Assembly (NCBI GenBank): GCA_031284265.1
Contig: JAITAG010000038.1
Location: 1 to 33,273 of the forward strand
Length of the DNA: 33,273 nt
Origin: Puniceicoccales bacterium
GTDB lineage: Bacteria > Verrucomicrobiota > Verrucomicrobiia > Opitutales > LL51
Direction: 5' to 3'
Part shown: in pieces, positions 1,112 to 33,273 of the stretch
Numbering within the stretch: position 1 is the first letter of the stretch
Layout of the letters: every line of letters starts with the position of its first letter
Notes under the pieces: model-generated
Told to the model about the DNA's origin: nothing
The model's database searches: none
The model's input: only the letters and a program-made list of their open reading frames with translations
Made by a program: the position numbers and the translations under genes

Positions 1112-1120
1112 AATCCCTGC

Positions 1121-1408
1121 CCAGAGGGCTCTGCCCTCTGGACTCCCGCCAGGGGATGGTTGTCTAAGGGCTCCTCGCCCTTAGAATCTCCGCCAGGGGA
1201 TCCATCCCCTGGACCGGGGTTCCGGGCCTTGCCCCGGGCTGGCCTGATTTTTTGGCCGACGCGCTGCGCATCGCGCAGCGCTTCGGCCAGGGTAAAATAA
1301 AGTTTTTGACCTTACGGCCAATCCATGCGAAAATTTCGCATGAATTGGCCGTTAAAGAGGTCAAGGAACCATGTTCCTTGCGGGAGTCCAGAGGACGGAG
1401 CCCTTTGG
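1121..1408 (+). repeat. GC-rich composite palindromic element, copy A
   Basis: This fills the gap between lolD and the convergent tRNA-Leu. It is a chain of hairpins: CCAGAGGGC/GCCCTCTGG (1121-1141), CTAAGGGC/GCCCTTAG, CCAGGGGAT/ATCCCCTGG, a long GC stem around GCGCTGCGC/GCGCAGCGC, an arm centred on ATGCGAAA/TTTCGCAT (about 1324-1342) inside CGGCCAAT/ATTGGCCG, then GGAAC/GTTCC. The outer 29 bp (1121-1149 and 1380-1408) form inverted repeats with three mismatches. Its GC content is far above that of lolD. The family recurs at 4761, 8121, 13091, 14774, 16105, 17169, 30606 and 32142. No ORF inside is credible. Confidence 0.9.
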
Positions 1409-1424
1409 AAAAAAGCAAAAAGGG

Positions 1425-2654: not shown

Positions 2655-2683
2655 AAAATTTCCCGAAAAACCATCCATCCAAA

Positions 2684-2706
2684 GGGAGGGTCTCAATGAC
2701 CCTCCC
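2684..2706 (+). terminator. Hairpin terminator-like site after the SPFH gene
   Basis: GGGAGGGTC (2684-2692) and GACCCTCCC (2698-2706) pair perfectly across a 5-nt TCAAT loop, 30 nt after the SPFH stop codon. The downstream sequence is GATAAAATTCG, not a strong U-tract, so termination efficiency is uncertain. Confidence 0.6.
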
Positions 2707-2727
2707 GATAAAATTCGTTAAGTTTTT

Positions 2728-2800
2728 AAAATCGCTTGACAGCTATTCCGTTAGCAGCAAGGCTAGGGGTAGAGGGTGGGAGCGAACGACATGTCAAAAA
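2728..2800 (+). repeat. 73-bp direct repeat, first copy
   Basis: This copy is identical, base for base over 73 nt, to 2878-2950. It contains TTGACA near one end and TGTCAA near the other, an inverted hexamer pair about 60 bp apart, with the core AGAGGGTGGGAGCG before CGACATGT. The two copies are offset by exactly 150 bp. The remaining sequence in the 2655-3035 gap is AT-rich and I see no gene in it. Confidence 0.9.
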
Positions 2801-2877
2801 AACGCAGCCTGTAGCTTATATGAATTTTACTTTTAATGGGTCCGTAGTTGTAAATTATATTTTGGCGTTAAGGATCG

Positions 2878-2950
2878 AAAATCGCTTGACAGCTATTCCG
2901 TTAGCAGCAAGGCTAGGGGTAGAGGGTGGGAGCGAACGACATGTCAAAAA
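2878..2950 (+). repeat. 73-bp direct repeat, second copy
   Basis: This is a perfect repeat of 2728-2800. It lies between the convergent SPFH gene and mnmE. The 77 bp separating the two copies have no counterpart elsewhere in the window. More diverged relatives lie at 32-57 and 10970-11032. Confidence 0.9.
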
Positions 2951-3035
2951 TATAAAACACTTACTTTTTTAAGATTTTCTGAAAAATTGTCAATATTTTA
3001 TTCCATTTATTGATCAATCAAAGGGCTTTAAGGAC

Positions 3036-4666: not shown

Positions 4667-4760
4667 AAATAAACAATAATACTAAAATAATGTTCGCTAG
4701 TCTCTAAAAATTTTATCCCCGTGTCAACACTATTCGTAAATTTTTCCAAAAATTATGAGG

Positions 4761-5090
4761 CCCTGCCCAAGGGCTGCGCGCCCTTGGATCCCCGCCAGGG
4801 GATCCGGGCCTATTCCCCGGGCGATTCCGGGGAATAGGCCCGAAGGGCCCAAAGGGCCCGCCCGCGGCTTCGCCGCGGGCGGGCCCTTTTTTTGGCCGAA
4901 GCGCTGCGCGTTGCGCAGCGCCTCGGCCAAAGGAAAAGTTTTAAACTACCCCTGCGGCCTAGTCAGGCGAAGAATTCGCCTGGCTAGACCGCAAAAGGAG
5001 GTCAAGGAGTCACGGACTCCTTGCGGGAGTCCAGAGGGCGGAGCCCTTTGGGCAAACCTCCTTGCGGGGTCATGGGGCAGAACCCCATGG
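4761..5090 (+). repeat. GC-rich composite palindromic element, copy B
   Basis: This fills the gap between infA and the 3' end of dxs (both minus strand). Hairpins in order are CCAAGGGC/GCCCTTGG, GGGCCTATTCCCCGG/CCGGGGAATAGGCCC, a near-perfect stem GCCCGCCCGCGG/CCGCGGGCGGGC followed by seven T, GGCCGAAGCGCTGCGC with its partner, then the second type of arm, GGCGAA/TTCGCC inside GCGG...CCGC, GGAGTC/GACTCC and CATGGGG/CCCCATG. The last 21 bp lie inside dxs and supply its stop codon. The large ORFs that run through it are GC-driven and lack protein character. Confidence 0.9.
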
Positions 5091-6899
5091 CGTCAGCCAA
5101 TCATTTTCAATTTTCATGGCAATGTCATCTACTGTTAAATGGAACATTTTTTCGAGATCCTCATTGCTTGAAGCATGGGGAATAAAGCAATCCGGCCAAG
5201 CAAAAATATGTAAATCAATAGCAATATTTTCCCGTGCAAAAAATTCAGCAATCGCACTTCCAAATCCACCCGCTTCGACATGATTCTCCAATGTGTAAAT
5301 CCTTTTACAATTCTGAGCACATGTGCGCAACATAATTTCATCCAATGGCTTTATAAAACGGGCATTAATAATTGTAAAAGCATAATAGGGCAATTTCCTA
5401 GCAACGGCCATTGCAACGGAAACGCTATCCCCTAAGGCTATCATGCAAATATCTTTTCCACGCTGAATCGTTTCACTTTGTCCTAGTACCACACCAGCGC
5501 AACAATTGCGACGATTCACCGTCTGAACTGCCGCGCCACGAGGATAGCGAATGCAACAGGGAACATGAAAATGAATCGCTGCCTCAAGCATTTTACATAG
5601 CTCATCGCCATCCTTTGGCTGCATAATGACGAGATGGGGAATGTTTCGCAAAAAAGCAATATCAAAGAGTCCATGGTGAGTCGGACCGTCATGGGCACAT
5701 AAGCCCGCCCGGTCGATGGCTATAATGATGGGTAAGTTTTGCAACGCAATATCGTGAAAAATATTGTCGAACGCACGCTGTAAAAAAGTGGAATAAATCG
5801 CACATACGGGCAATAATCCGGCCTTTGCGAGCCCCGCCGCAAACGTTACAGCGTGGCCTTCGGCAATCCCTACATCAAAAAACCGCTCCGGGAACTTTTG
5901 CTGAAAAAGATCGAGTCCCGTTCCCTGCGCCATCGCCGCCGTAATCGCTACAATTTGCGGATTTTTTTCCGCTAAATCGCATAGGGCTTGCCCTAAAATT
6001 TGGGAATATCCCACGAAATGCTGCCGATCGGATGTAATGCCATGAGTTTTCTCGGGACAATGTTCCGCGTTCGAATCGCCATGGCCTTTTTTCGTCTTGA
6101 CATGCAAAAGAAGAGGACGCTTACTTCGTTTACAAAATTTTAAAGCATCGACAAGATCCGTTATACTATGCCCATCGATGGGCCCGATGTAACGCAAGCC
6201 GTAGTACTCAAAAAACGAAGACGGCAGTAAAAATGCCTTGATTAGACGTTTAGCATGGGATAATAAATGAATAAATGGATTGCCAAGCGGTAATTTTCGC
6301 AAGCTATGTTTTAAGAAATTTTTAAAGCGATTATAAGTATTGCTGCACATGATCCCATTGAGATAGCGTGCAATAGAACCCACATTCTTCGCAATTGCGT
6401 AGCCATTATCATTCAACACGACAATTAGACGCGTTTTCCCGATATGATTGAGTGCTTCAAGGGTCAGTCCGTTAGTTAATGACGCATCACCAATAACGGC
6501 AATAACGTGGTAATTTTGACGTAATCGATCCCGCGCCACGGCCATACCTAACGCGCTGGATAGGGCCGTTCCCGCGTGGCCACAATAAAATACATCGTGG
6601 GGACTTTCATGGGGCGAAGTAAATCCGGAAAGACCACCCGTTTGGCGGAGGGTTGAAAATCGATCCCGACGACCGGTGAGGATTTTATGGGCGTAACATT
6701 GATGGGAAACGTCGAAAATAATTTTATCTTTCGGTGAATCAAAAACCTCATGAAACGCAATCGATAGCTCAACAACCCCGAGATTGGATGCCAAATGTCC
6801 CCCATTCGTTTCGGTGATTTCCTGAATCAAATTGCGGATATTTCGAGCCATCTCAGCATATTTCAAATTTTTTTCTCTTTGATTAAAAAGTTTTCCCAT
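5070..6899 (-). CDS. dxs: 1-deoxy-D-xylulose-5-phosphate synthase
   Basis: This 609-residue thiamine-diphosphate enzyme condenses pyruvate and glyceraldehyde 3-phosphate, the first step of the MEP isoprenoid pathway. Landmarks are LASNLGVVELSIAFHEVFD, HKILTGRRDRFSTLRQ (71-86), CGHAGTALSSALGMA (106-120), the ThDP-binding motif GDASLTNG...LNDN (137-165), IDGHSITDL, the catalytic-Glu motif GIAEGHAVTFAAGLA, YSTFLQRAFDNIFHD and DRAGLCAHDGPTHHG. Several usual residues differ: DVSHQ for DVGHQ, GHAGT for GHSST, and AEGHA for AEQHA. These are probably clade variants, because the catalytic Glu and the following His remain. The last eight residues (LTPWGSAP) and the stop are encoded by palindromic element copy B. 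ispF of the same pathway lies at 30936-31415. Confidence 0.93.
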   Translation of the reverse strand: MGKLFNQREKNLKYAEMARNIRNLIQEITETNGGHLASNLGVVELSIAFHEVFDSPKDKIIFDVSHQCYAHKILTGRRDRFSTLRQTGGLSGFTSPHESPHDVFYCGHAGTALSSALGMAVARDRLRQNYHVIAVIGDASLTNGLTLEALNHIGKTRLIVVLNDNGYAIAKNVGSIARYLNGIMCSNTYNRFKNFLKHSLRKLPLGNPFIHLLSHAKRLIKAFLLPSSFFEYYGLRYIGPIDGHSITDLVDALKFCKRSKRPLLLHVKTKKGHGDSNAEHCPEKTHGITSDRQHFVGYSQILGQALCDLAEKNPQIVAITAAMAQGTGLDLFQQKFPERFFDVGIAEGHAVTFAAGLAKAGLLPVCAIYSTFLQRAFDNIFHDIALQNLPIIIAIDRAGLCAHDGPTHHGLFDIAFLRNIPHLVIMQPKDGDELCKMLEAAIHFHVPCCIRYPRGAAVQTVNRRNCCAGVVLGQSETIQRGKDICMIALGDSVSVAMAVARKLPYYAFTIINARFIKPLDEIMLRTCAQNCKRIYTLENHVEAGGFGSAIAEFFARENIAIDLHIFAWPDCFIPHASSNEDLEKMFHLTVDDIAMKIENDWLTPWGSAP

Positions 6900-6952: not shown

Positions 6953-7064
6953 ATCCAAGGAAAATATTTTCGTCTACGATTTTTTTAAAAAGAATTAAAA
7001 AAACAGCTTGACATGGTAAAAATTTTAAACGACGGTGGGATCGTTATCAATAATAAGGAAAAAA

Positions 7065-8111
7065 ATGAAAAATAAATATACAAAAAAATTATTAATGGGA
7101 ACGACATTTTTGTCATTCGGGTTATATTTCAGTATGGGTCAGGCGCTTTTTTCAAGACAACCTCTAACGCATATACGATCACTGAATGACGTTGGGCAAA
7201 AAAGACTACTTTGGGAAGACCCATCCCAATTCTGGAAAAAACCAACCCAATGTGAGTTTATCATTCAATTTACTGAAACCTCGCCTGCATTGATACGCAA
7301 TCAATTGTTGGATGCCGTTCAAAGTAAAAAACCAGTTAAAGTCCTGGAGATTTTACTTTTGAATCGCATTTCTCCTTGTCTGGAGGATGTTAGTCTCTTC
7401 CTTCACATTGCCATTATGAACAATGATTTTCTTACTTTGGCTGCACTTGTGTCCGCAGAATATTTCGACGAATCAGGATTAAAAAAACCACTCTGTAATA
7501 TCAATTATGTGCATGAAGAAATGACACCACTTATGAGGGCAACGAAACTTGGTCGCATAGAAATGGTCAATCATCTTATAAAGGAAGGCGCCGATCTATT
7601 CCAAGTATCGACCAAGGGAACAATCCTACATTTCGCTACTCGTTTGGGCGATATTGAGTTAACAATGAAAATAATACAAAAAATAAATGATAAACACTCA
7701 TTGGTGGAGAATCCCAACAATGGTAATCCCAACAACGGTAATCCCAATAATGGTAATCCCAATAATGGTAATCCCAATAATGGTAATCCCCACAATGAGA
7801 GAAAACAGTTTCTTAATCGCGTAGATCAAAATGGTAAAACAATTTTCCTCGTCGCATGTGAAAATTTTTTAAAACACAAACTTTCACCTACGCTGTTGAG
7901 TTACATCCTTTTTTGGTGGAATGACTACGATTTTAAAAACGATATTAAACAAGAACAATTCTTTGAAATTATTAAAGAAATCCTGAGTAAATTAAAAGCT
8001 GATCAAAAATGGTACAACCTTCGTAAGAATTTCCCTATGGACAAAAAAACGCGAGAAGATCTCATCGCGATATTATATAAAATGCTTGAACATATGTGTA
8101 ATACCCTATAA
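7065..8111 (+). CDS. Exported ankyrin-like repeat protein with NPNNG tandem repeats
   Basis: A 348-residue protein is predicted from the ATG at 7065, preceded by AAGGAAA; an in-frame GTG at 7035 lacks a ribosome-binding site. The N-terminus (MKNKYTKKLLMGTTFLSFGLYFSMGQALF) has a basic start and hydrophobic core typical of a signal peptide. Around residues 160-215, TPLMRATKLGRIEMVNHLIKEGAD and TILHFATRLGDIELTMKII fit the ankyrin TPLxxAxxxGxxxxVxxLLxxGA pattern, and DQNGKTIFLVACEN may be a third repeat. Five NPNNG units plus a degenerate NPHNE sit between the second and third ankyrin units. The rest is helical, Lys-rich and unrecognised. Ankyrin proteins often mediate protein-protein contacts, including with hosts, but a host role is inference only. 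The gene stands alone between the divergent dxs and the convergent frr. Confidence 0.7.
   Translation: MKNKYTKKLLMGTTFLSFGLYFSMGQALFSRQPLTHIRSLNDVGQKRLLWEDPSQFWKKPTQCEFIIQFTETSPALIRNQLLDAVQSKKPVKVLEILLLNRISPCLEDVSLFLHIAIMNNDFLTLAALVSAEYFDESGLKKPLCNINYVHEEMTPLMRATKLGRIEMVNHLIKEGADLFQVSTKGTILHFATRLGDIELTMKIIQKINDKHSLVENPNNGNPNNGNPNNGNPNNGNPNNGNPHNERKQFLNRVDQNGKTIFLVACENFLKHKLSPTLLSYILFWWNDYDFKNDIKQEQFFEIIKEILSKLKADQKWYNLRKNFPMDKKTREDLIAILYKMLEHMCNTL
7710..7799 (+). repeat. 15-bp coding tandem repeat (NPNNG x5 plus one degenerate unit)
   Basis: The 15-bp unit AATCCCAAYAAYGGT occurs five times in frame (7710-7784), followed by AATCCCCACAATGAG. The third to fifth units are identical and the first two carry silent C/T changes, suggesting recent slippage. 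Copy number may differ between strains. Confidence 0.95.
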
Positions 8112-8120
8112 AATCCCCAT

Positions 8121-8464
8121 CAGAAGGCCCTGCCCTCTGGACTCCCAACAGGGGATGGTTGCCCAATGGCTACTCGCCCTTGGATCCCCGCCAGGGGATC
8201 CATCCCCTGGACCGGGGTTCCGGGCCTTGTCCCCGGGCATCGCCCGGGGACAAGGCCCGAAGGGCCCAAAGGGCCCGCCCGCGGCGAAGCCGCGGGCGGC
8301 CTGACTTTTTTGCCTTGGCGCTGCGCGCTGCGCAGCGCCAAGGCAAAGGTAAGTAAAGTTTTTGACCTTACGGCCAATTCATGGGAAAATTTCCCATGGA
8401 TTGGCCGTTAAAAAGGTCAAGGAACCATGTTCCTTGCGGGAGTCCAGAGGGCGGAGCCCTCTGG
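8121..8464 (+). repeat. GC-rich composite palindromic element, copy C
   Basis: This fills the gap between the convergent ankyrin-like gene and frr. It has the same module order as copy A, plus the GGGCCC...CCGCGGGCGG block seen in B. Its long arm is centred on ATGGGAAA/TTTCCCAT (about 8380-8398), where copy A has ATGCGAAA/TTTCGCAT; both strands of the stem have changed together. The right end is GCGGGAGTCCAGAGGG...CCCTCTGG, six bases from the frr stop codon. No credible gene lies inside. Confidence 0.9.
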
Positions 8465-8470
8465 GGTTAC

Positions 8471-10794: not shown

Positions 10795-10808
10795 ATCGAG
10801 GAGCAATT

Positions 10809-10836
10809 GTTATAATTTTCGTAAAATTTGCAACAA
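10809..10836 (-). promoter_or_regulatory. Possible promoter for the unknown gene-pyrH-frr run
   Basis: On the minus strand TTGTTG (10836-10831) and TATAAC (10814-10809) are 16 nt apart. The predicted start lies about 7 nt before the ATG at 10794, leaving little room for a ribosome-binding site, and none is visible. Confidence 0.4.
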
Positions 10837-10969
10837 AAAAATAAAAGTTTTTCCGGGTGCTCTTTTTATAACAAATTTATAAAATCATGGCTATTTCACT
10901 GGCATCCGTTCATTCCCTAATGATGGGGAACTCAATGGAATGACGACTAAAGCTCTGAGAAGAACAAAC

Positions 10970-11032
10970 TTGACAGCGGTTGAAAGTACGGCAAGGCTGA
11001 AAGGTAGAGGGTGGGAGCGAGCGTCATGTTTA
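10970..11032 (+). repeat. Diverged copy of the 73-bp repeat family
   Basis: TTGACAGC at the left, GCAAGGCT in the middle and GGTAGAGGGTGGGAGCGA near the right match 2728-2800, ending GTCATGTTTA instead of GACATGTCAA. Relative to the 2.7-kb copies it has a single-base insertion after GCAAGGCT, which would break any shared reading frame, so the conservation is at DNA or RNA level rather than protein. It lies between the unknown gene and the 3' end of the phosphohexomutase gene. Confidence 0.75.
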
Positions 11033-11077
11033 CGGCTCGGCACTGTTTTTTATTCCCCACTTTTGCCAGGTTATGTT

Positions 11078-13060: not shown

Positions 13061-13090
13061 GACAAAAGTAGAGCTCCACCCTCTGACTTA

Positions 13091-13430
13091 CCATGGGGCT
13101 CCGCCCCATGGCCCCGCAAGGAGGTTTATCCAGAGGGCTCTGCCCTCTGGACTCCCGCAAGGAGTCACGGACTCCTTGACCTCTTTTGCGGCCCAGCCAA
13201 GCGAATTCTTCGCCCGGCTGGGCCGCGGGTAAGTTTAAAATTTTCCTTTGCCGAAGCGCTGCGCGTTGCGCAGTGCCTCGGCAAAAAGGTCAGGCCGCCC
13301 GCGGCGAAGCCGCGGGCGTTGCCCGGGGACAAGGCCCGGAACCCCGGTCCAGGGGATGGATCCCCTGGCGGGGATTCTAAGGGCGCGCAGCCCTTGTGCT
13401 GCCCAGAGGGCTCCGCCCTCTGGGCAGCAC
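13091..13430 (-). repeat. GC-rich composite palindromic element, copy D (reverse orientation)
   Basis: This lies between the divergent phosphohexomutase and prepilin-like genes, so here it separates two gene starts. Module order is reversed relative to copies A-C: CCATGGGGC/GCCCCATGG first, then CCAGAGGGC/GCCCTCTGG, GGAGTC/GACTCC, the second-type arm GCGAATTC/GAATTCTTCGC region, the CGAAGCGCTGCGC block, the CCGCGG block and finally a perfect 16-bp stem with a 3-nt loop at 13396-13430 (GTGCTGCCCAGAGGGC and its complement). No credible gene lies inside. Confidence 0.9.
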
Positions 13431-13482
13431 AATGTGTAATAAACATTTGCCAAGGCATAGAATAATTTCAACATGGGACTAA

Positions 13483-14091
13483 GTGGAAAAAAAAGTTAGC
13501 AGTTTCACGCTAGTCGAATTGGTAATGGTAATCGCATTAGTATCGGTATTTTTATTTTTTTTAGTAAGATTGAATGTTACGGCGGGCGATGAAAACCATC
13601 GGATTAAGACGGCCGTATTATTGCTTACGTCGAGTTTTGATAGTGTGCGTGGGCAAGCGATTGCAGATAATACTTACGTGAAAATTTTCATCGATACATC
13701 ATCGGATTTGAAATTTCGTCGGCTAGCGATTATGAAAAAAACGAGAAATACTTGGAAAACGGAGCATGAAATTGTACTTCCGGAACGGACGTTTATATTA
13801 TCGCGTAGCGATTTTTCAGCATATCTGGATAATGCGGATTTGTCCGCATATGTTTATGTCGAAGAAGAGGTCATTTTACAGGGAGAAAGTATCGGTGGTT
13901 ATGGTTTCATTTTCGATCCGGAGGGACATTTATCTAATGCGAAAGTAGCAATTTTAGGGATCGGGTATGGTACAAAAGTCGGTGATGATATAAAGATAAA
14001 AAAAGATATTAATATTTGCGGATTACTCATTACGGCAATGGGTAGTGGAGTAATATTGGAATCAAAAAGTGCGATAAAAGAGGCGATATGA
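13483..14091 (+). CDS. Prepilin-like protein (GspH-type minor pseudopilin)
   Basis: A 202-residue protein from a GTG start, preceded by GGGA. The N-terminus MEKKVSSFTLVELVMVIALVSVFLFFLV is a class III prepilin signal: a short basic leader, then FTLVELV with the conserved Glu at mature position 5, then a hydrophobic helix. The residue before the cleavage site is Ser, not the usual Gly; prepilin peptidases can tolerate some small residues there. The soluble part has alternating beta segments, as in GspH pseudopilins, but no firm signature. Its stop overlaps the next prepilin-like gene by 4 nt (ATGA), so the pair is translationally coupled. It probably serves the T2SS/pilus machine encoded at 22887-30598. 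Confidence 0.75.
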   Translation: MEKKVSSFTLVELVMVIALVSVFLFFLVRLNVTAGDENHRIKTAVLLLTSSFDSVRGQAIADNTYVKIFIDTSSDLKFRRLAIMKKTRNTWKTEHEIVLPERTFILSRSDFSAYLDNADLSAYVYVEEEVILQGESIGGYGFIFDPEGHLSNAKVAILGIGYGTKVGDDIKIKKDINICGLLITAMGSGVILESKSAIKEAI

Positions 14092-14773: not shown

Positions 14774-15000
14774 GCCCAGAGGGCCCCGTGACCCCGCAAG
14801 GAACATTGTTCCTTGACCTTTTTATCGGCCAAACCATGGGAAATTTTCCCATGGTTTGGCCGTAAGGGGCGAAAAATATCATTTTCTGGCCCCGCCCGCG
14901 GCTTCGCCGCGGGCGGGCCCGGGCCCTTCGGGCCAGGGGATGGATCCCCTGGCGGGGATTCTAAGGGCGCGCAGCCCTTAGACAACCATCCCCTGACGGG
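14774..15000 (-). repeat. GC-rich composite palindromic element, copy E (reverse orientation)
   Basis: A shorter reverse-oriented copy between the second prepilin gene and hldA. It keeps GGAAC/GTTCC, the arm CGGCCAAACCATGGGAAA with its complement (about 14827-14865), the CCGCCCGCGG/CCGCGGGCGG stem, CCAGGGGAT/ATCCCCTGG and CTAAGGGC/GCCCTTAG, but lacks the GCGCTGCGC block. The following 15001-15149 is AT-rich. A possible -10 (TATGAT) lies 8 nt before the hldA ATG. Confidence 0.88.
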
Positions 15001-15149
15001 AGGAAAGCTAAACAAAAATAAATTGACAATGATGAAAGGATGAATCAGGATGTAGAAACATGGAAAACATCACACTTAACGTTGGCGTGTGGATTATTTA
15101 TTTTTTATTAAAAATATATTTGTAATATCTAAAAATATGATATGGGCGA

Positions 15150-16118
15150 ATGAAAGCATTAGAAAATTTATTAGAGCGCATTAGAAAATTGAAGATACTT
15201 GTGATTGGAGATTTGATGCTCGATCGCTATATTTTTGGTGATGCCAACCGCATTTCTCCGGAGGCGCCGGTTCCCATCGTTGATGTGGAACAAGAAAAAG
15301 AAACCCTGGGTGCGGCAGCAAATGTAGCATTAAACCTATGCTCCATTGGTACCGATGTAGAAGTTTTGGGAAGTTTTGGGTTTGATATACCAGGCGAGCG
15401 TCTAAAGCATCTGCTTCTGGCCTATGGAATTAAATTTGATCCCAGTTGTCAACAAAAAAATGTGAAGACAATCCTCAAAACGCGCGTAGTTGTCCGTAAT
15501 CAACAGCTATGCCGCCTCGACATCGAGGATTTGCCAAAAAAATATACCTTAGAACAAAACGCGTATTTGGAAAAATTATTAGCCAAAATTGATCGCTACG
15601 ACGGAATTATTTTTTCAAACTATGCCAAAGGGACTATTACGCAACCGATAGCTGATCGGGTAATTACTGCGGCACAACGCCACGGAATTGTTACAGCGGC
15701 TGATCCGAAACCAAAAAGTGGCATTCGATTCACGGGAATTGATCTCCTTAAACCTAATAAATCGGAGGCATTTGAAATGGTAAGGACAAAAAATTCCCGT
15801 TTCGATGTCAGTGATATCTGCCGTAACATCTTCGCTGAATACCAACCGAAGTATTTAGTGGTCACGCTGGGACAAGATGGCATGTTGGTTGCAAAAAATG
15901 GTGAAATCATTGAGCAAATTACAAGTAATGCGCGGGAAATTTTTGATGTATCGGGTGCCGGTGATACGGCGATTGCATTTTTGACGGCAGCTTTAGCGGC
16001 ACGTGGATCAATTGTAAATGCAGCAAAGTTAGCAAACTTTGCTGCAGGAATTGTTGTCGGAAAAATTGGAACCGCAACTGCTACCGTTGAAGAAATTTTA
16101 AAGGCTGCACGCCCTTAG
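15150..16118 (+). CDS. hldA: D-glycero-beta-D-manno-heptose-7-phosphate kinase (HldE N-domain type)
   Basis: This 322-residue PfkB/ribokinase-family protein matches the kinase half of HldE. Motifs are VIGDLMLDRYIFGDANRISPEAPVPIVD (18-45), LGAAANVALNLCSIG (53-67), SNYAKGTI, DPKPKSG, LLKPNKSEA, VTLGQDGM and the catalytic DVSGAGDTAIAF (266-277, with D272 as catalytic base). It phosphorylates heptose 7-phosphate at C1 in ADP-heptose synthesis for LPS core. The cytidylyltransferase-like domain found in fused HldE is absent, so a separate HldC is expected elsewhere. The last codons and stop (AARP) fall in a module of the palindromic element, and the 3' end overlaps the convergent exchanger-like gene by 38 nt. 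Confidence 0.92.
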   Translation: MKALENLLERIRKLKILVIGDLMLDRYIFGDANRISPEAPVPIVDVEQEKETLGAAANVALNLCSIGTDVEVLGSFGFDIPGERLKHLLLAYGIKFDPSCQQKNVKTILKTRVVVRNQQLCRLDIEDLPKKYTLEQNAYLEKLLAKIDRYDGIIFSNYAKGTITQPIADRVITAAQRHGIVTAADPKPKSGIRFTGIDLLKPNKSEAFEMVRTKNSRFDVSDICRNIFAEYQPKYLVVTLGQDGMLVAKNGEIIEQITSNAREIFDVSGAGDTAIAFLTAALAARGSIVNAAKLANFAAGIVVGKIGTATATVEEILKAARP

Positions 16119-17100
16119 AATTCCCATTAGGGAATGCTGCCCAGAAGGCTCTGCCCTCTGAATAAATGGAAAAGGAAAAAGCACAGATAAACACAACAAA
16201 AAGTACCAGTCCTTCGAGGCGATTAATTTTGCGTCTTGTCACAAAAAAGCACCCCATTAAAATCGTTAGAAAGACCAAAAAAGGAATGCTAGTACGGCAG
16301 AGCTCTGTACTAACCGGTATGGGGTGAATGAGTGCACAGCTGCCCGTGATCATTAAGCTATTAAAAATATTGGATCCAATGATATTGCCGGTACAAATCG
16401 CACCATGGCCGCGCAATGCGGCTACCAATGAAATGACGATTTCGGGAAAACTTGTACCCACGGCGACGATGGTAAATCCGATTAATGCATCGGACCATCC
16501 CAACGCATGGGCTATTTTAACGCTAGCGTTAATGACAAGTTGTGCGCCTGAAAATAAAAGTAAAAGCCCAAAAATAAAGAGACTTAGCGCTTTCTCTAAA
16601 TCGATTTCCAGGCTTATTTTTGAGTTAACATTTTCTTCCTCATTTTCACATCGATCTTTTTTACAAATAAAATAGAGGTACAAAACGTTTATGGCGATAA
16701 AAATTATTCCCAGATGAAATTCTATGGGAATAAGAATTGCACAGATTCCAAAGTAACCGGTAATGAAACATAGAAAAGGAATTTCGATTTTAATGATGTG
16801 GGAAGTAATGGTAAAAGGTTTTATGAGGGCGACGAGGCCACCGGCTAGGCCAATATTGACGAGATTACTGCCGATGACATTTCCAACAACGATCTCGGGA
16901 TGACGGTCCAATGTGGCGATGAGTGAAGTAACTAGTTCCGGTGCAGAAGTCGAAATCGCAACGATAGTCATCCCGATAACAAACTGGCTGATGCCAAAGT
17001 GAATAGCCATGGCACTAGCCCCACGACAAACAAAATCCCCACCATAAGCAAGTAAAATAAAACCTAAAACTGTAAAAAAAACAATCTCCCACATATCCAT
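16081..17100 (-). CDS. Calcium/sodium antiporter-family membrane protein (YrbG-like)
   Basis: A 339-residue, multi-spanning CaCA-family protein. The two inverted alpha repeats are clear: GMTIVAISTSAPELVTS (43-59) and GFTIVAVGTSFPEIVIS (near 205), each with the ion-binding Ser/Thr-Pro-Glu pattern and followed by GNVIGSNLVN and GNIIGSNIFN. A charged loop (KKDRCENEEENVNSK) separates the two halves. Such proteins exchange Na+ or H+ for Ca2+ across the inner membrane. The last 20 or so residues (GRAFWAAFPNGNSKGVQ and beyond) look foreign: they are encoded by palindromic fragment F and then antisense to the hldA 3' end. The gene is flanked by copy G upstream. Confidence 0.9.
   Translation of the reverse strand: MDMWEIVFFTVLGFILLAYGGDFVCRGASAMAIHFGISQFVIGMTIVAISTSAPELVTSLIATLDRHPEIVVGNVIGSNLVNIGLAGGLVALIKPFTITSHIIKIEIPFLCFITGYFGICAILIPIEFHLGIIFIAINVLYLYFICKKDRCENEEENVNSKISLEIDLEKALSLFIFGLLLLFSGAQLVINASVKIAHALGWSDALIGFTIVAVGTSFPEIVISLVAALRGHGAICTGNIIGSNIFNSLMITGSCALIHPIPVSTELCRTSIPFLVFLTILMGCFFVTRRKINRLEGLVLFVVFICAFSFSIYSEGRAFWAAFPNGNSKGVQPLKFLQR
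16105..16160 (+). repeat. Fragment of the GC-rich palindromic element, copy F
   Basis: CACGCCCTTAGAATTCCC and CCCAGAAGGCTCTGCCCTCTG match the first two modules of the long element in swapped order, without the long arms. The fragment covers the convergent 3' ends of hldA and the exchanger-like gene and contributes codons to both. Confidence 0.75.
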
Positions 17101-17168
17101 ATGAGTGTTGTAAAAAGTCAGCTATTTGCAATTCTTAATATTCTTGCCTTTTTCCTAAGTTTTTTTCT

Positions 17169-17550
17169 GAGGCTCTGCCTCATGCCCCACTAAGCGATGC
17201 TGCTCAATGGATCCCCGCTAGGGGATGGTTGTCCAGAGGGCCCTGCCCTCTGGACAACCAGGGGATCCATCCCCTGGACCGGGGTTTCGGGCCTTGCCCA
17301 CGGGCAACGCCAGGGGACAAGGCCCGAAGGGCCCAAAGGGCCCGCCCGCGGCGAAGCCGCGGGCGGCCTGACCTTCTTGCCGAAGCGCCGCGCAGCGCCC
17401 CGGCAAAGGAAAAATTTAAACTACCTCCGCGGCCCAGCCGGGCGAAGAATTCGCTTGGCTGGGCCGCAAAAGGAGGTCAAGAAGTCTGCGACTCCTTGCG
17501 GGGTATGGGACCGGAGCCCCATGGCAGCTGCCCAAGGGCTGCGCCCTCTT
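17169..17550 (+). repeat. GC-rich composite palindromic element, copy G
   Basis: This forward copy fills most of the gap between the 5' end of the exchanger-like gene and the 3' end of rng. It adds a perfect stem TTGTCCAGAGGGC/GCCCTCTGGACAA (17230-17259 region) nested inside the usual chain. It has the second-type arm GGCGAA/TTCGC inside GCGGCCCAGCC/GGCTGGGCCGC. The right end (GGGCTGCGCCCTC) stops 2 nt before the rng stop codon. Several long GC-biased ORFs cross it and are not credible genes. Confidence 0.9.
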
Positions 17551-28930: not shown

Positions 28931-30598
28931 ATGGAAAATTTAGATAGAGTACTCGCAACGGTTGATCCCGCTCTGCCCACGGCAATTGCCACCAATCATA
29001 TCGATAAAAAAATCGAGATCCTCGCCGAAAAATTGGCGCGTACACAACTTGATGCCTACGAATGGCTAGCTAGCATATGCGGCTTCCCTTTTGTCCAAAA
29101 ATTCACAGTATCCAAGGAAATTACAAAAATTCTCCCGGAAAAATTGCTCCTAGAATATGTGTGTTTGCCCATTGATCGGGAAGATGGCCGCCAGGGACTC
29201 GTTTTCGGCTGGATTCCTGATGCAACCATGAAAAAATGGATCAAGGCCTCTTCAAATATCGATTTTGTCTATTGTTTGGGACCCATCCAAGAAATCCGTA
29301 AAGTAATCAATGAGCGCTTTGGCGTCGGTGCAGGGAGTTTTGCAGATACCGATGGTAACGAAGGACTCGTCGCAAAGATTGAAACAATACAGGAAGATGA
29401 AGACGCGGTCGTAATCAAGTTCGTCAACGAACTCGTCAAACAGGCCCTCGCCGATCGCGCAACGGATATCCATTTCGAACCTCAAAAAAAATCGCTTCAA
29501 ATCCGCTATCGCATCGATGGTGCCCTGGTCCCCGTCAGTTTACCCCCCAATCTCGTCCTCTACCAGGCAGCAATCATTTCACGCCTAAAAATTATGGCCA
29601 AGCTCAATATCTCGGAAAAACGCCGCCCACAGGACGGCCGTATCGCCTTCCGCTCCGGAGACACTTCCATCGATATCCGCGTATCTACTCTGCCTATCGC
29701 CTACGGTGAAAGTGTCAGTCTGCGCCTATTAAATTTAAGTGAAGCCCCCGTCGAACTCGAAGGCATGGGCCTAGGCCAAAAACAATTGGAACAAATCGTC
29801 AATGCAATCTCCCGGCCCCACGGCATCGTCCTCGTTACTGGCCCCACCGGATCCGGTAAATCAACCATGCTTAATGCCTGTATCCATAAAATTCGTAGCC
29901 CGGAAATCCGTATCATTACCGTTGAAGACCCAGTAGAATATGAAATCGCCGGTATCAATCAGTGCCAGGTTCAATCGGATATCGGTATGACCTTCGCCAG
30001 CGCACTGCGCTCCATACTGCGCCAGGACCCCGATGTCATCATGATCGGCGAAATCCGTGACGCCGAAACAGCCGATATCGCCATTCGCGCCTCCATTACC
30101 GGTCATATGGTCCTCAGTACCTTACATACCAACGATTCGGCAGGTGCCGTTTCCCGCCTCTGTGACATGGGCCTAGAACCCTTTCTCCTCGCCTCATCCC
30201 TACAACTGGTTCTCGCCCAACGTCTGGTAAGAAAAATTTGTCCGCATTGCGCAAAAAAAGCAAACTATACTCCAGATGAATTGGAGTACGCGCTGCGAGC
30301 TTTGCGCGTCGACCCAATCCAAGAGTTAGCTCATATCGATAAAATTATGGTCGGTACTGGTTGCGATAAGTGTAAAAATGGGTACAAAGGAAGAATCGCC
30401 GTCCATGAAGTGTTGGTCATTAGTGATAAAACCCAACAGGCAATTATTAAAAATGCCCCCGCCAGAGAAATCCGAACCATAGCACTCGAAGAGGGAATGC
30501 AGACATTACAAGCCTGTGCCTGGGAACATGTTAAAAAAGGTAGAACAACCCTTGAGGAAATTATGCAGTTCGCCGATAAAAATAATATGGAAGACTAA
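28931..30598 (+). CDS. gspE: T2SS/pilus assembly ATPase GspE (PilB-like)
   Basis: This 555-residue hexameric motor ATPase drives pseudopilus or pilus growth. The N-terminal T2SSE domain covers about 35-135. Walker A is GPTGSGKST (304-312), the Asp box is around ITVEDPVEYEIAGINQCQV (329-347), Walker B is VIMIGEIRDAETADIAIRAS (369-388) and the His box is GHMVLSTLHTNDS (391-403). Two CxxC pairs (Cys437/440 in CPHC, Cys478/481 in CDKC) form the zinc site of GspE/PilB. It closes the run that starts at 22887. No gspF, gspG or prepilin peptidase gene follows; element copy H begins just after its stop. Confidence 0.95.
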   Translation: MENLDRVLATVDPALPTAIATNHIDKKIEILAEKLARTQLDAYEWLASICGFPFVQKFTVSKEITKILPEKLLLEYVCLPIDREDGRQGLVFGWIPDATMKKWIKASSNIDFVYCLGPIQEIRKVINERFGVGAGSFADTDGNEGLVAKIETIQEDEDAVVIKFVNELVKQALADRATDIHFEPQKKSLQIRYRIDGALVPVSLPPNLVLYQAAIISRLKIMAKLNISEKRRPQDGRIAFRSGDTSIDIRVSTLPIAYGESVSLRLLNLSEAPVELEGMGLGQKQLEQIVNAISRPHGIVLVTGPTGSGKSTMLNACIHKIRSPEIRIITVEDPVEYEIAGINQCQVQSDIGMTFASALRSILRQDPDVIMIGEIRDAETADIAIRASITGHMVLSTLHTNDSAGAVSRLCDMGLEPFLLASSLQLVLAQRLVRKICPHCAKKANYTPDELEYALRALRVDPIQELAHIDKIMVGTGCDKCKNGYKGRIAVHEVLVISDKTQQAIIKNAPAREIRTIALEEGMQTLQACAWEHVKKGRTTLEEIMQFADKNNMED

Positions 30599-30605
30599 AG
30601 ACTCC

Positions 30606-30930
30606 TCAACCCCTTAGAATCCCCGCCAGGGGATCCATCCCCTGGACCGGAGTTCCGGGCCTTGTCCCCGGGCAACGCCCGGGGAATAGGCCCGAAGGGC
30701 CCAAAGGGCCCGCCCTCGGCGAAGCCGCGGGCGGCCTGACCTTTTTGCCGAAGCGCTGCGCAACGCGTAGCGCCTCGGCAAAGGAAAAATTTAAACTACC
30801 CCTGCGGCCCAGCCGGGCGAAGAATTCGCCTGGCTGGGCCGCAAAAGAGGTCAAGGAACCATGTTACTTGCGGGGTATGGGGCGGCGCCCCATGGCAGGC
30901 TTGCCCAGAGGGCGGAGTCCTCTGGGCAAA
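30606..30930 (+). repeat. GC-rich composite palindromic element, copy H
   Basis: This forward copy fills the gap between the convergent gspE and ispF. It starts inside the CCTTAGAATCCCCGCCAGG module, so the CCAGAGGGC terminus is missing. It then runs through the GGGCCC...CCGCGG block, the CGAAGCGCTGCGC block, the second-type arm (GGCGAAGAATTCGCC inside GCGGCCCAGCC/GGCTGGGCCGC), ATGGGGC/GCCCCAT and GCCCAGAGG...CCTCTGGGC, ending beside the ispF stop codon. Confidence 0.9.
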
Positions 30931-30935
30931 CTTAA

Positions 30936-31415
30936 TTATTTGCTCAACAGGCAAACTGCGTGGCAAGCGATAGCTTTTTTAGCACCAATATCGTCGAGAC
31001 CTTCGTTAGTTGTCGCTTTGACACCGATCCGATCCTTTGAAAGTCGCAATAATTTAGCTAAATTATTGCGCATTAAGTGAATGTATGGCGCCAGTTGCGG
31101 TTCCTGAGCGATGATTGTGCAATCGACATTTTCAACTTTGTAACCATGGTACAAAATTTCATTTTCGTAAATATTACGCAATATTTCCGTTGAAGCTATA
31201 TCGGTTGTTTTTTTATCTGTGTCGGGATAAAATTGACCGATATCGGGAAGAGCTAAGGCTCCAAGAAGCGCATCGGTTATCGCATGGCAAAGGCAATCCG
31301 CATCAGAATGGCCGAACAAACCACGTTCAAATGGAACTTGAACGCCTCCCAAAATTAATGCTCGCCCCATAACGAGGCAGTGAATATCATAGCCATGGCC
31401 GATTTTCAACTCCAT
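30936..31415 (-). CDS. ispF: 2-C-methyl-D-erythritol 2,4-cyclodiphosphate synthase
   Basis: A 159-residue trimeric enzyme of the MEP isoprenoid pathway. Its metal ligands are visible as Asp10 and His12 in IGHGYDIH and His44 in GHSDADCLCHAITDALLGA. PDIGQFYPDTD and IGVKATTNEGLDDIG are the other conserved blocks. It converts CDP-ME 2-phosphate to MEcPP with release of CMP. Its start overlaps the 3' end of the pseudouridine-synthase-like gene by 10 nt, so the two are coupled. The pathway entry enzyme dxs is also in this window, some 24 kb away; ispD is not seen. Confidence 0.96.
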   Translation of the reverse strand: MELKIGHGYDIHCLVMGRALILGGVQVPFERGLFGHSDADCLCHAITDALLGALALPDIGQFYPDTDKKTTDIASTEILRNIYENEILYHGYKVENVDCTIIAQEPQLAPYIHLMRNNLAKLLRLSKDRIGVKATTNEGLDDIGAKKAIACHAVCLLSK

Positions 31416-32122
31416 TTTTTGATGATTTTTAACATTGTCACGAATTTACTAGTTAAGGCAGACACCATTTTTATATTACTCCCGCCGTAAAAAAAATCAA
31501 TTTCAGATAAATAAATACAAACTGCAGGATACAGCGGCGTTAAAATTCCTTTGCGATTCGATTTCACTTTAGATTTAAAATCAGATAAAAAAGGTACAGG
31601 AATTTTGTTATAAACATCTTCGCCCAAAATCTTTATACCCACTTCATGGGCGTGGAGACGAATCTGATGTTTACGTAAAAAATTCGTTTCAGCGGACCAC
31701 AGGGTAAATTGTTTCAGTATTTCAATTTTTCTAAAAATAGTTTGTGTTTTTTTTCCTGTTGTATGAGAAATGACCATACAGTCTCGTTCGCGATGCTGCG
31801 CAATTGGCAAATCGCAAATGATTTCCTCAGGTAAATCGATGTCGCTCTGTGCAAATACGGTAAAATAAAAAGCTATTTTTCCTGAGCCATATATATTTCT
31901 TAAACTTTTATAAAAGTGTTTGTTTTTTGCGCATAAAATGATGCCACTTAGTTCTAGATCAAGATCGTAGATCGGCGAAAATGAAAAAAACTTTGCCATG
32001 AATAAAGCACCGGTTTCGATACCGATCGGCTTCTCAATTGCGCAATAATCTGTAAAATCAATAATAGTCCCTGATGAAAAATGATAATCCAATATCGCCC
32101 TAAATATGATCTTGATCCTCAA
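31406..32122 (-). CDS. RluA-family pseudouridine synthase, divergent
   Basis: Up to 238 residues. Three RluA landmarks can be aligned by eye: an N-terminal CAIEKPIGIETG (family v-v-x-K-P-x-G), PIYDLDLELSGIILCAKNK (family HRLDxxTSGlll.Ak), placing Asp55 at the catalytic aspartate, and NFLRKHQIRLHAHEVGIKILGEDVY (family GRtHQIRvHl...ghpi.GD..Y). The usual His-Arg before Leu-Asp are Tyr-Asp here, and the GRT before HQIR is Leu-Arg-Lys, so this is a diverged member. Substrate RNA is unknown. The open frame begins with TTG at 32122; a TTG at 32092 has AGGG 5 nt upstream and may be the true start. ispF overlaps its end. Confidence 0.65.
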   Translation of the reverse strand: MRIKIIFRAILDYHFSSGTIIDFTDYCAIEKPIGIETGALFMAKFFSFSPIYDLDLELSGIILCAKNKHFYKSLRNIYGSGKIAFYFTVFAQSDIDLPEEIICDLPIAQHRERDCMVISHTTGKKTQTIFRKIEILKQFTLWSAETNFLRKHQIRLHAHEVGIKILGEDVYNKIPVPFLSDFKSKVKSNRKGILTPLYPAVCIYLSEIDFFYGGSNIKMVSALTSKFVTMLKIIKKWS

Positions 32123-32141
32123 AAGACAATAATATTTGTAA

Positions 32142-32500
32142 CCAGAGAGCTCTGCCCTCTGGACTCCCGCAAGGAGTCACGGACTCCTTGACCTCTTTTA
32201 ACGGCCAAACCATGCGAAATTTTCGCATAGTTCGGCCGTAGAAGGTAAACCCCGCCTGGCGCAAAGCGCCGGGCGGGAGTTTATTTCTTAATTCCTCTGG
32301 CCGAGCCGATGTGTAACACACATCGGCTCGGCCCAAAAATAGTCTTAATTAAAAAAGTCTGCCTCGCCGCGGGCAGGGCCTTTAGGGTCCCTTCGGGCTT
32401 TCCATCTGGCGATGCCAGATGGAAAGCCCGTAATCTCGGTCCAGGGGGTGGGCCCCTGGCGGGGACTCCTAATGGCGATGAACCCTTAGGGGGTATTGCT
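32142..32500 (-). repeat. GC-rich composite palindromic element, copy I (reverse orientation)
   Basis: This reverse-oriented copy lies between the pseudouridine-synthase-like gene and the last pseudopilin gene. It combines GGAGTC/GACTCC (otherwise paired with the second-type arm) with the first-type arm CGGCCAAACCATGCGAAA and its partner (32211-32229 centre), so it is a mosaic. It also has hairpins not seen elsewhere: CGGGCGGG with its CCCGCCTGGCG partner, GGCCGAGCCGATGTGT/ACACATCGGCTCGGCC (16 bp perfect, about 32300-32335) and GGGCTTTCCATCTGGC/GCCAGATGGAAAGCCC (16 bp perfect, 32396-32429). No gene is credible inside. Confidence 0.85.
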
Positions 32501-32520
32501 GGACTTTTTTTCTTATCAAT

Positions 32521-33273
32521 CTATCCTTCTCCATAACCCCATGTAATCAGGTTGGAATTTTCTCCTTTATATATATTTCGGTGGCCGCAGGTAATTTCGG
32601 AGTTATGCGGAACGGCATAGCGGATATCGTTTGTATAGCCCGATTGATCCCACTTTAAAAATTTCGCCGGTCTACTACCGTCAAACCAGGTAACATGCCC
32701 GTCGCAATAGACCACGTAACCGCCCTTACTGCCATAGAGTCCCGCTTTTTCGTCCCAGGTACCGTCAATACAAAGGCCACGGGTAAAGGCCAACGGCGTC
32801 GTATCCAGTGGAACATTCGAAATCGGTCCATGGGCAATGAAGCAATAACTAATAAGAGACCACCCCGAAAACAAAGCATTGTCAACATTACTCAATATGC
32901 CATCGGTCCATTTAATTTTCCCTGAGCTGCTATCGAGCTCACAGATTGTTTCCTTTAAAATTTTTGGGGCATATTTATCGCCCGGAGAAATCCAAACGTA
33001 GGGATCATTGAGAACCATATCCGAAATGTTACTCTTATCATATCCAGCTAACTGCTGCATAATTTCCGAGATAAAAAAATCTCCTCCATCTCCTTCACCA
33101 ATAGTCCAGCCGCGGTTGATGACGCATTCCTTCCAGGCTTCGGCAATTTTTTTGAGATTGGAGACGTCTTTTACTTTCTGCGCGCTTAACTTTATGGCAC
33201 TCATCGCCGGTAACAGTATGGCCAGTAAAATACCGATGATGGAAATAGTGAAAACAATTTCAACTAGAGTGAA
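32521..33273 (-). CDS. Pseudopilin with H-X9-DG-type domain, 5' end beyond the window
   Basis: The frame is open to the window edge, so the gene is 5'-partial. The first visible codons read FTLVEIVFTISIIGILLAILLPAM, a prepilin helix with Glu at mature position 5, so only the leader and cleavage-site Gly are missing. The later ATG at 33204 lies after this helix and is not the start. The soluble part of about 225 residues includes GGYVVYCDGHVTWFDG, which matches the DGHV/H-X9-DG motif of prepilin-like proteins abundant in Planctomycetes and Verrucomicrobia. It ends NSNLITWGYGEG. Function is unknown: either a GspG-like pseudopilin or one of the expanded surface-filament families. It is about 2 kb from gspE but on the opposite strand. 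Confidence 0.8.
   Translation of the reverse strand, partial: FTLVEIVFTISIIGILLAILLPAMSAIKLSAQKVKDVSNLKKIAEAWKECVINRGWTIGEGDGGDFFISEIMQQLAGYDKSNISDMVLNDPYVWISPGDKYAPKILKETICELDSSSGKIKWTDGILSNVDNALFSGWSLISYCFIAHGPISNVPLDTTPLAFTRGLCIDGTWDEKAGLYGSKGGYVVYCDGHVTWFDGSRPAKFLKWDQSGYTNDIRYAVPHNSEITCGHRNIYKGENSNLITWGYGEG

Follow-up and report, generated by a model that had tools for sequence, protein, structure and literature searches.

A dispersed family of chained hairpins with conserved ends lies at breaks of gene order in reduced-genome Puniceicoccales

Results

Hairpin chains in the gene gaps of the window

The window, by which we mean the whole 33,273-nucleotide stretch of DNA that was analysed, is part of contig C16 of a MAG of 0.956 Mb (71 contigs, 82.5% complete), hereafter the own genome. 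By RNase E/G comparison, its closest named relatives are MAGs labelled Puniceicoccales bacterium, with 87–91% protein identity, and our genus set comprises 12 reduced-genome Puniceicoccales MAGs, the own genome included, with a completeness of 64–93%. Judging from isolate codes, the small genome and taxonomy, this tiny-genome bacterium and its relatives are probably termite-gut symbionts, and the group may stand near the 'Nucleococcus cluster' of protist symbionts (PMC8204192).

The window holds eight chained-hairpin copies and one fragment. An earlier note, made from the letters of the sequence alone, had placed nine repeat copies here, and our analysis bears out all nine, along with their hairpins and the occurrence of both orientations. 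They are listed below, with the modules of the chain numbered m1 to m10.

1117..1413, + strand: copy A, m1 to m10 with inner m4/m5 partly deleted; an ABC-transporter stop (1111) on one side and tRNA-Leu (1423–1505, − strand) on the other
4756..5095, + strand: copy B, m2 to m10; its last hairpin (5057–5095) extends into the 3′ end of dxs (stop 5070, − strand), so that the last few residues before this stop are element-encoded
8116..8465, + strand: copy C, full chain m1 to m10; flanked by the ankyrin-gene stop (8111) and the RRF stop (8471, − strand)
13086..13435, − strand: copy D, between the divergently transcribed pgm (start 13024, − strand) and a gene at 13483 (+ strand)
14775..15002, − strand: copy E, a shortened chain; a stop codon (14765) lies 9 nt before it
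16099..16160, + strand: fragment F, consisting of m2 plus an outer hairpin, where the 3′ ends of pfkB and a Na/Ca exchanger gene overlap
17161..17549, + strand: copy G, 2 nt from the RNase E/G stop (17552, − strand); relatives have hairpin chains in the same gap
30597..30930, + strand: copy H, between the convergent stops of a T2SSE-type ATPase gene (30598) and a gene at 30936 (− strand)
32136..32515, − strand: copy I, with divergent m4 and m6 plus one additional hairpin; flanked by a pseudouridine synthase-like gene (31406–32122, − strand) and the stop of a gene at 32521 (− strand)

The copies in the window are 228–389 nt long, near the 230–380 bp given earlier, but copies elsewhere in the own genome reach ~740 nt. 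Their GC content is 54–65% against 44% for the window, as had been noted, with the short fragment (46%) as the exception. The 29-bp inverted termini described for copy A pair at 26 of 29 positions, but this outermost hairpin is present only in some copies. We found 51 strong hairpins in the window and seven chains of at least three, compared with 1–2 hairpins and no such chain in locally shuffled sequence.

The statement that nearly every long gap is filled by the element was too strong, as the gaps near 2655–3035 and 10807–11077 are occupied by another repeat that is shorter. This second dispersed repeat (core GGTAGAGGGTGGGAGCGAnCGnCATGT, ~65–85 nt) occurs in the window at 27–53, 2716–2800, 2866–2950 and 10963–11029, carries TTGACA...TGTCAA at its ends in one form, numbers at least 14 copies in 319 kb of own-genome DNA and is also found in relatives. 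There is also a tandem 15-bp repeat, AATCCCAATAATGGT, at 7695–7812 inside the ankyrin-repeat gene (7035–8111), where it codes for a short repeated peptide.

The median distance of a copy is 6 nt to a stop codon and 65 nt to a start codon, and copies occupy 19 tandem, 10 convergent and 6 divergent gaps (n = 35). The short distance to stop codons follows from the compactness of the genome, in which the median length of element-free tandem gaps is 15 nt. A fixed orientation relative to genes is ruled out by splits of 22:18 and 17:14. Copies lie in gene gaps and at most touch gene ends, as at dxs, and no in-frame insertion within reading frames was seen, in a test that is weak because our gene caller dropped reading frames lying mostly within elements.

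The unit has two conserved ends and a species-specific interior

Thirty-four full-length own-genome copies can be aligned in a single order of ~10 modules, in agreement with the conserved hairpin order first proposed, each chain consisting of ~6–10 different hairpins in that fixed order. The unit can be written as an outer hairpin m2, a ATCCCCGC linker and hairpin m3 at the 5′ end, followed by an inner hairpin chain, and then hairpin m8, a GCGGGGT linker and the outer hairpin m9 at the 3′ end. Each conserved end is therefore made of two hairpins and a linker, and the interior is a species-specific run of long hairpins between them. Across relatives, the constant 5′ end reads CTAAGGGCnnnnnGCCCTTAG - aATCCCCGC - CCAGGGGATCCATCCCCTGG and the constant 3′ end GAGGTCAAGGAGTCnnnGACTCCTTG - CGGGGT - ATGGGGCnnnGCCCCAT. 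The ATCCCCGC and GCGGGGT linkers are complementary, so that a single branched fold can surround the inner hairpins, and it is through these linkers only that the constant ends pair with each other.

Using profile HMMs of the ends, we detected 97 units that have both ends, correctly ordered, the inner lengths being species-typical. The ends share 73–88% identity between genomes. The inner parts share 32–74% between genomes versus 65–86% inside one genome, with 52% for a shuffled inner control. Further outer hairpins may follow one another at either end, and entire units also occur in tandem; the longest array spans 1.55 kb and holds ~5 units with 38 consecutive hairpins (L199:2489–4042, from G004:C10).

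Stems covary and the loops of inner hairpins invert

In 33 copies, standard pairs make up 91.9% of pair cells, and pairing falls to at most 49% when the partner is slid. Cells with a double change number 129 versus 45 in shuffles, a value reached in 0 of 500 shuffles; since the copies are related, the shuffles alone are no proof of structure, whereas the slid control is clear. In the long inner hairpins the loop is found in both senses (m5, TTC in 22 and GAA in 13; m6, ATC/GAT and GTT/AAC). One sense is kept by m3 (TCCA in 32 of 32), by m9 and by the outermost pair, and the outer loops are oriented so that they mirror each other at the two ends. A freely inverted loop would be easier to explain by events at DNA hairpins than by an RNA function. 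The earlier reader could name no matching element, and the family is indeed dispersed, modular and palindromic with a REP/BIME-like look: at gathering thresholds, the Rfam 15 covariance models matched only two tRNAs in the window and no element.

Among the class genomes searched, the family was found only in one genus

The own genome contains at least 101 5′ ends and at least 119 3′ ends by the end models, so that the family extends well beyond the window. It is present in 10 of the 12 genomes of the genus. With at most 150 candidates scored per genome, all counts are lower bounds. At least 50 of both end types occur in each of G001, G004, G007, G008, G009 and G010, and ends are few in G003 (at least 16 5′ and 18 3′), G006 (at least 2 and 5) and G011 (0 and at least 9). 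In G002 and G005, neither end model gave an end among the candidates scored. No 3′ ends were found in the sister genus, and a 5′-end search of the other 285 genomes of the class gave none among the few candidates scored per genome under stricter filters. Within the 286 class genomes searched, the family was thus found only in this genus. Copy C had no match in a plasmid collection, nor did the exact m3 palindrome in viral contigs.

We estimate that elements make up ~4% of the own genome (119 × ~330 nt); the share is 6.3% in the own-genome stretches sampled, which were partly picked for carrying elements. Many own-genome contigs end within an element (C1, C34, C40, C41, C44, C66, C68, C70 and others), and two contig ends have exactly 119 nt in common, indicating that the family probably limits the assembly and is undercounted.

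Copies share sites between species and sequence within genomes

Downstream of RRF and RNase E/G, and upstream of pgm, most relatives carry a hairpin chain in the same orientation, with a sequence that differs by species. Orthologous gene ends in relatives carry an element in 24 of 53 cases where the own end bears one, versus 4 of 169 for other ends; in stretches picked regardless of elements, the counts are 11 of 29 versus 1 of 123. Orientation is the same in 18 of 21 of these cases. Identical placement in all relatives had been suggested as an argument against mobility. We found placement to be neither random nor identical, gene ends and orientation being shared while some relatives have a decayed copy or none; after RRF, for example, the copy is decayed in G004 and no element is present in G001, G002, G003 and G005.

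A tree of the copies nevertheless groups them by genome, with 5 label changes where the minimum is 4 and shuffled labels give 24.6. Copies resemble other copies of their own genome more than they do their orthologues, and orthologous copies are hardly closer to each other than to the other copies of that species. The combination of the same sites and the same orientation with a species-wide sequence points to concerted evolution of dispersed repeats, or to repeated replacement in place by newer copies.

Gene order is seldom conserved across the elements

Stable gene order and few repeats are common in host-restricted bacteria with reduced genomes. In this genus, based on simple in-house gene calls and a partial sampling of the genomes, the adjacent gene is retained in 7 of 154 cases (5%) across element gaps, versus 220 of 568 (39%) across element-free gaps of at least 40 nt and 450 of 639 (70%) across shorter element-free gaps. 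For stretches picked regardless of elements, the counts are 2 of 23 across elements versus 54 of 61 (element-free) and 53 of 54 (short gaps), and for convergent and divergent gaps alone 0 of 15 with an element versus 27 of 36 without. An earlier count of element gaps against element-free gaps of at least 40 nt gave a Fisher p of 3.5e-13, which is only indicative as tests across genomes are interdependent.

On contig C68 of G008, the genes on the two sides of every element are distant from each other in the own genome or lie there on separate contigs. Copies H and I enclose a two-gene block that has elements on both sides in G008 too, but next to other neighbours. Because copies within contigs can be told apart at k = 119, a value to which the contig names of the relatives point, false assembly joins are unlikely. 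Gene order in related species is thus nearly always broken at elements, which suggests that the element drives chromosome reshuffling. Elements could instead sit at sites that tolerate rearrangement anyway, and the element-free gap control makes this less likely.

Transposases and insertion marks

The earlier note had proposed a search for a REP-associated tyrosine transposase (RAYT) or another transposase with matching ends. A Y1 transposase (PF01797) was found in none of the 12 genus genomes, which are MAGs of 64–93% completeness, and five control genomes were positive. IS110 was likewise absent from the 12 genomes, and neither DDE_Tnp_1 nor RVT_1 was found in the own genome. Elsewhere in the genus, DDE_Tnp_1 has one clear match in G009 and one broken and two sub-threshold matches in G008, and RVT_1 a sub-threshold fragment in G003. 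As mobilisers in the own genome, all four families were rejected, none having been found there.

No target-site duplication was detected, the longest flanking direct repeat averaging 3.75 nt versus 3.99 nt for shuffled partners, although old or recombined copies could have lost one. A GTAG or CGTC tag stands at the foot of 1 of 312 hairpins. The earlier reading is thus supported only in part: a dispersed, modular palindromic family is present, but no tested transposase in the own genome, no target duplication and practically no REP tags go with it. With RAYT absent, the other tested families missing from the own genome and placement shared, current transposition is not supported, and inheritance with recombination is.

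Discussion

Origin and maintenance of the repeat

We consider it probable that the family is a vertically inherited, non-coding hairpin-chain repeat that is homogenised within each genome, and that ectopic recombination through its copies shuffles gene blocks. Most copies would go back to an ancestor within the genus and would have stayed at the gene ends where they lie today. Between copies, ectopic exchange that depends on RecA would have two effects: gene conversion would keep the copies of one genome alike and so produce a version of each species' own, and crossovers would join the flanks of different copies, such that gene blocks are reshuffled with each gene keeping its own half-element in the same orientation. 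Arm complementarity may be kept at the DNA level, by arm-to-arm conversion or by a switch of template where hairpins are extruded, and the same events would turn round the loops of the long inner hairpins. The repeat itself may be selfish or neutral. That orthologous ends keep their orientation (18:3), although orientation relative to genes is random (22:18), counts for this inheritance model. The species-specific sequence could also come from whole-genome replacement by a newly spreading version. A RecA gene was found in the own genome, and a search of carrier MAGs G004 and G009 (91–93% complete) found it in neither; if this absence is real, exchange there would need another route.

A species-specific sequence would likewise be expected from an active non-autonomous transposable element of REPIN/MITE type that is mobilised in trans by a transposase recognising the hairpin ends and has invaded each species separately. 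The high copy number, the conserved ends around a free interior, the oriented and mirrored outer loops and the absence from some relatives would all fit. We nevertheless regard this as unlikely, given that orientation is kept at orthologous gene ends, which is unexpected from independent insertions, that no target-site duplication was seen, and that the searches for Y1_Tnp and IS110 (12 genomes) and for DDE_Tnp_1 and RVT_1 (own genome) found none, in MAGs that are incomplete. A functional RNA element, acting as a bidirectional terminator or as a 3′-end mRNA stabiliser after stop codons, as has been proposed for REPs, would account for the strong covariation as selection on RNA folding, and for the very stable predicted folds and the proximity to stop codons. 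This proximity is already explained by the compact genome, however, and 6 of 35 copies lie in divergent gaps, orientation to genes is random, loops invert freely, decayed copies exist, many gene ends have no copy and the family went undetected in two genomes of the genus, so an RNA role appears distinctly improbable. Selection for spacing of a chromosome-organising site, a BIME-like target for gyrase or a nucleoid protein, would suit the conserved ends and the 50–130 copies in most carrier genomes; with 2–18 copies, or none, in closely related genomes of about the same size, we give it very little weight.

Returning to an inherited and recombining repeat, a wider picture can be offered only tentatively. 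The chromosome of this genus might consist of gene blocks bounded by ~100 hairpin-chain joints in a genome that is apparently poor in insertion sequences, with recombination and hairpin-driven correction of the arms sufficing, in place of any transposase, to keep and homogenise the repeat, and with gene order turning over mainly at the joints. Ten carriers and two non-carriers within one genus make repeat-driven rearrangement, concerted evolution of dispersed copies and persistence without a transposase testable.

Comparison with known systems

No description of this hairpin-chain element was found in the literature searched, and we class it as a new family among the palindromic interspersed repeats of bacteria, set apart from REP/REPIN and Rickettsia palindromic elements by their tested defining features and from MITEs by the missing target duplications. 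Bacterial MITEs (Correia/NEMIS, RUP, ERIC, Bcr1) are non-coding, 70–300 bp long and have inverted ends, with terminal inverted repeats of 15–30 bp. Our element is similarly non-coding and adjoins genes, with an outermost inverted pair in some copies only, but its ends are hairpins rather than insertion-sequence-like inverted repeats, and no target duplication or matching transposase was found among the families tested. Rickettsia palindromic elements insert in frame within reading frames and carry a CGTC terminal tag, whereas here the location is the gene gap and a CGTC/GTAG tag is practically missing from the hairpins.

REPs are 20–40 bp long, bear a GTAG or CGTC tag and are often accompanied by a RAYT gene, and some populations have long been inherited (PMC3733652, PMC3116915). 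Like REP, BIME and REPIN sequences, the present copies are dispersed extragenic palindromes that often follow genes and form mosaic clusters; unlike REP/REPIN, they are ordered chains and not single 20–40 bp palindromes, with the tag in a single hairpin of the 312 and no Y1 transposase found. Nearest in architecture, and likened by architecture alone, is BOX of Streptococcus pneumoniae and S. suis, a modular composite repeat of ~70–640 bp with ends boxA and boxC and variable inner modules (PMC3049150). Both have conserved ends round a variable interior, form stem-loops and are dispersed between genes. In the hairpin-chain element, in contrast, all modules are GC-rich hairpins, the interior differs from species to species, the stems show covariation and flipping, and gene order is broken at the copies.

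Mitochondrial genomes offer further parallels. In cryptophytes, hairpin elements have been proposed to explain extensive gene-order shuffling (PMC5910586), so that they too are tied to gene shuffling; they are mitochondrial and their role is only proposed, whereas the association of the hairpin chains was counted against element-free gaps. Nearest in behaviour are the GC clusters of yeast mitochondria, which are ~40 nt long and insert at an AG target (PMC4478555; Dieckmann and Gandy 1987 cited therein). They share with our element the GC-rich palindromic hairpins in AT-rich intergenic DNA, the merger and shuffling of hairpin units and probably the association with homologous recombination, which in our case would account for the gene-order breaks. 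The hairpin chains differ in being ordered chains of 230–740 nt, in lying on a bacterial chromosome and in having no detectable target duplication. As is thought for the mitochondrial GC clusters, a dispersed palindromic repeat here appears to make gene order fluid while leaving the blocks intact.
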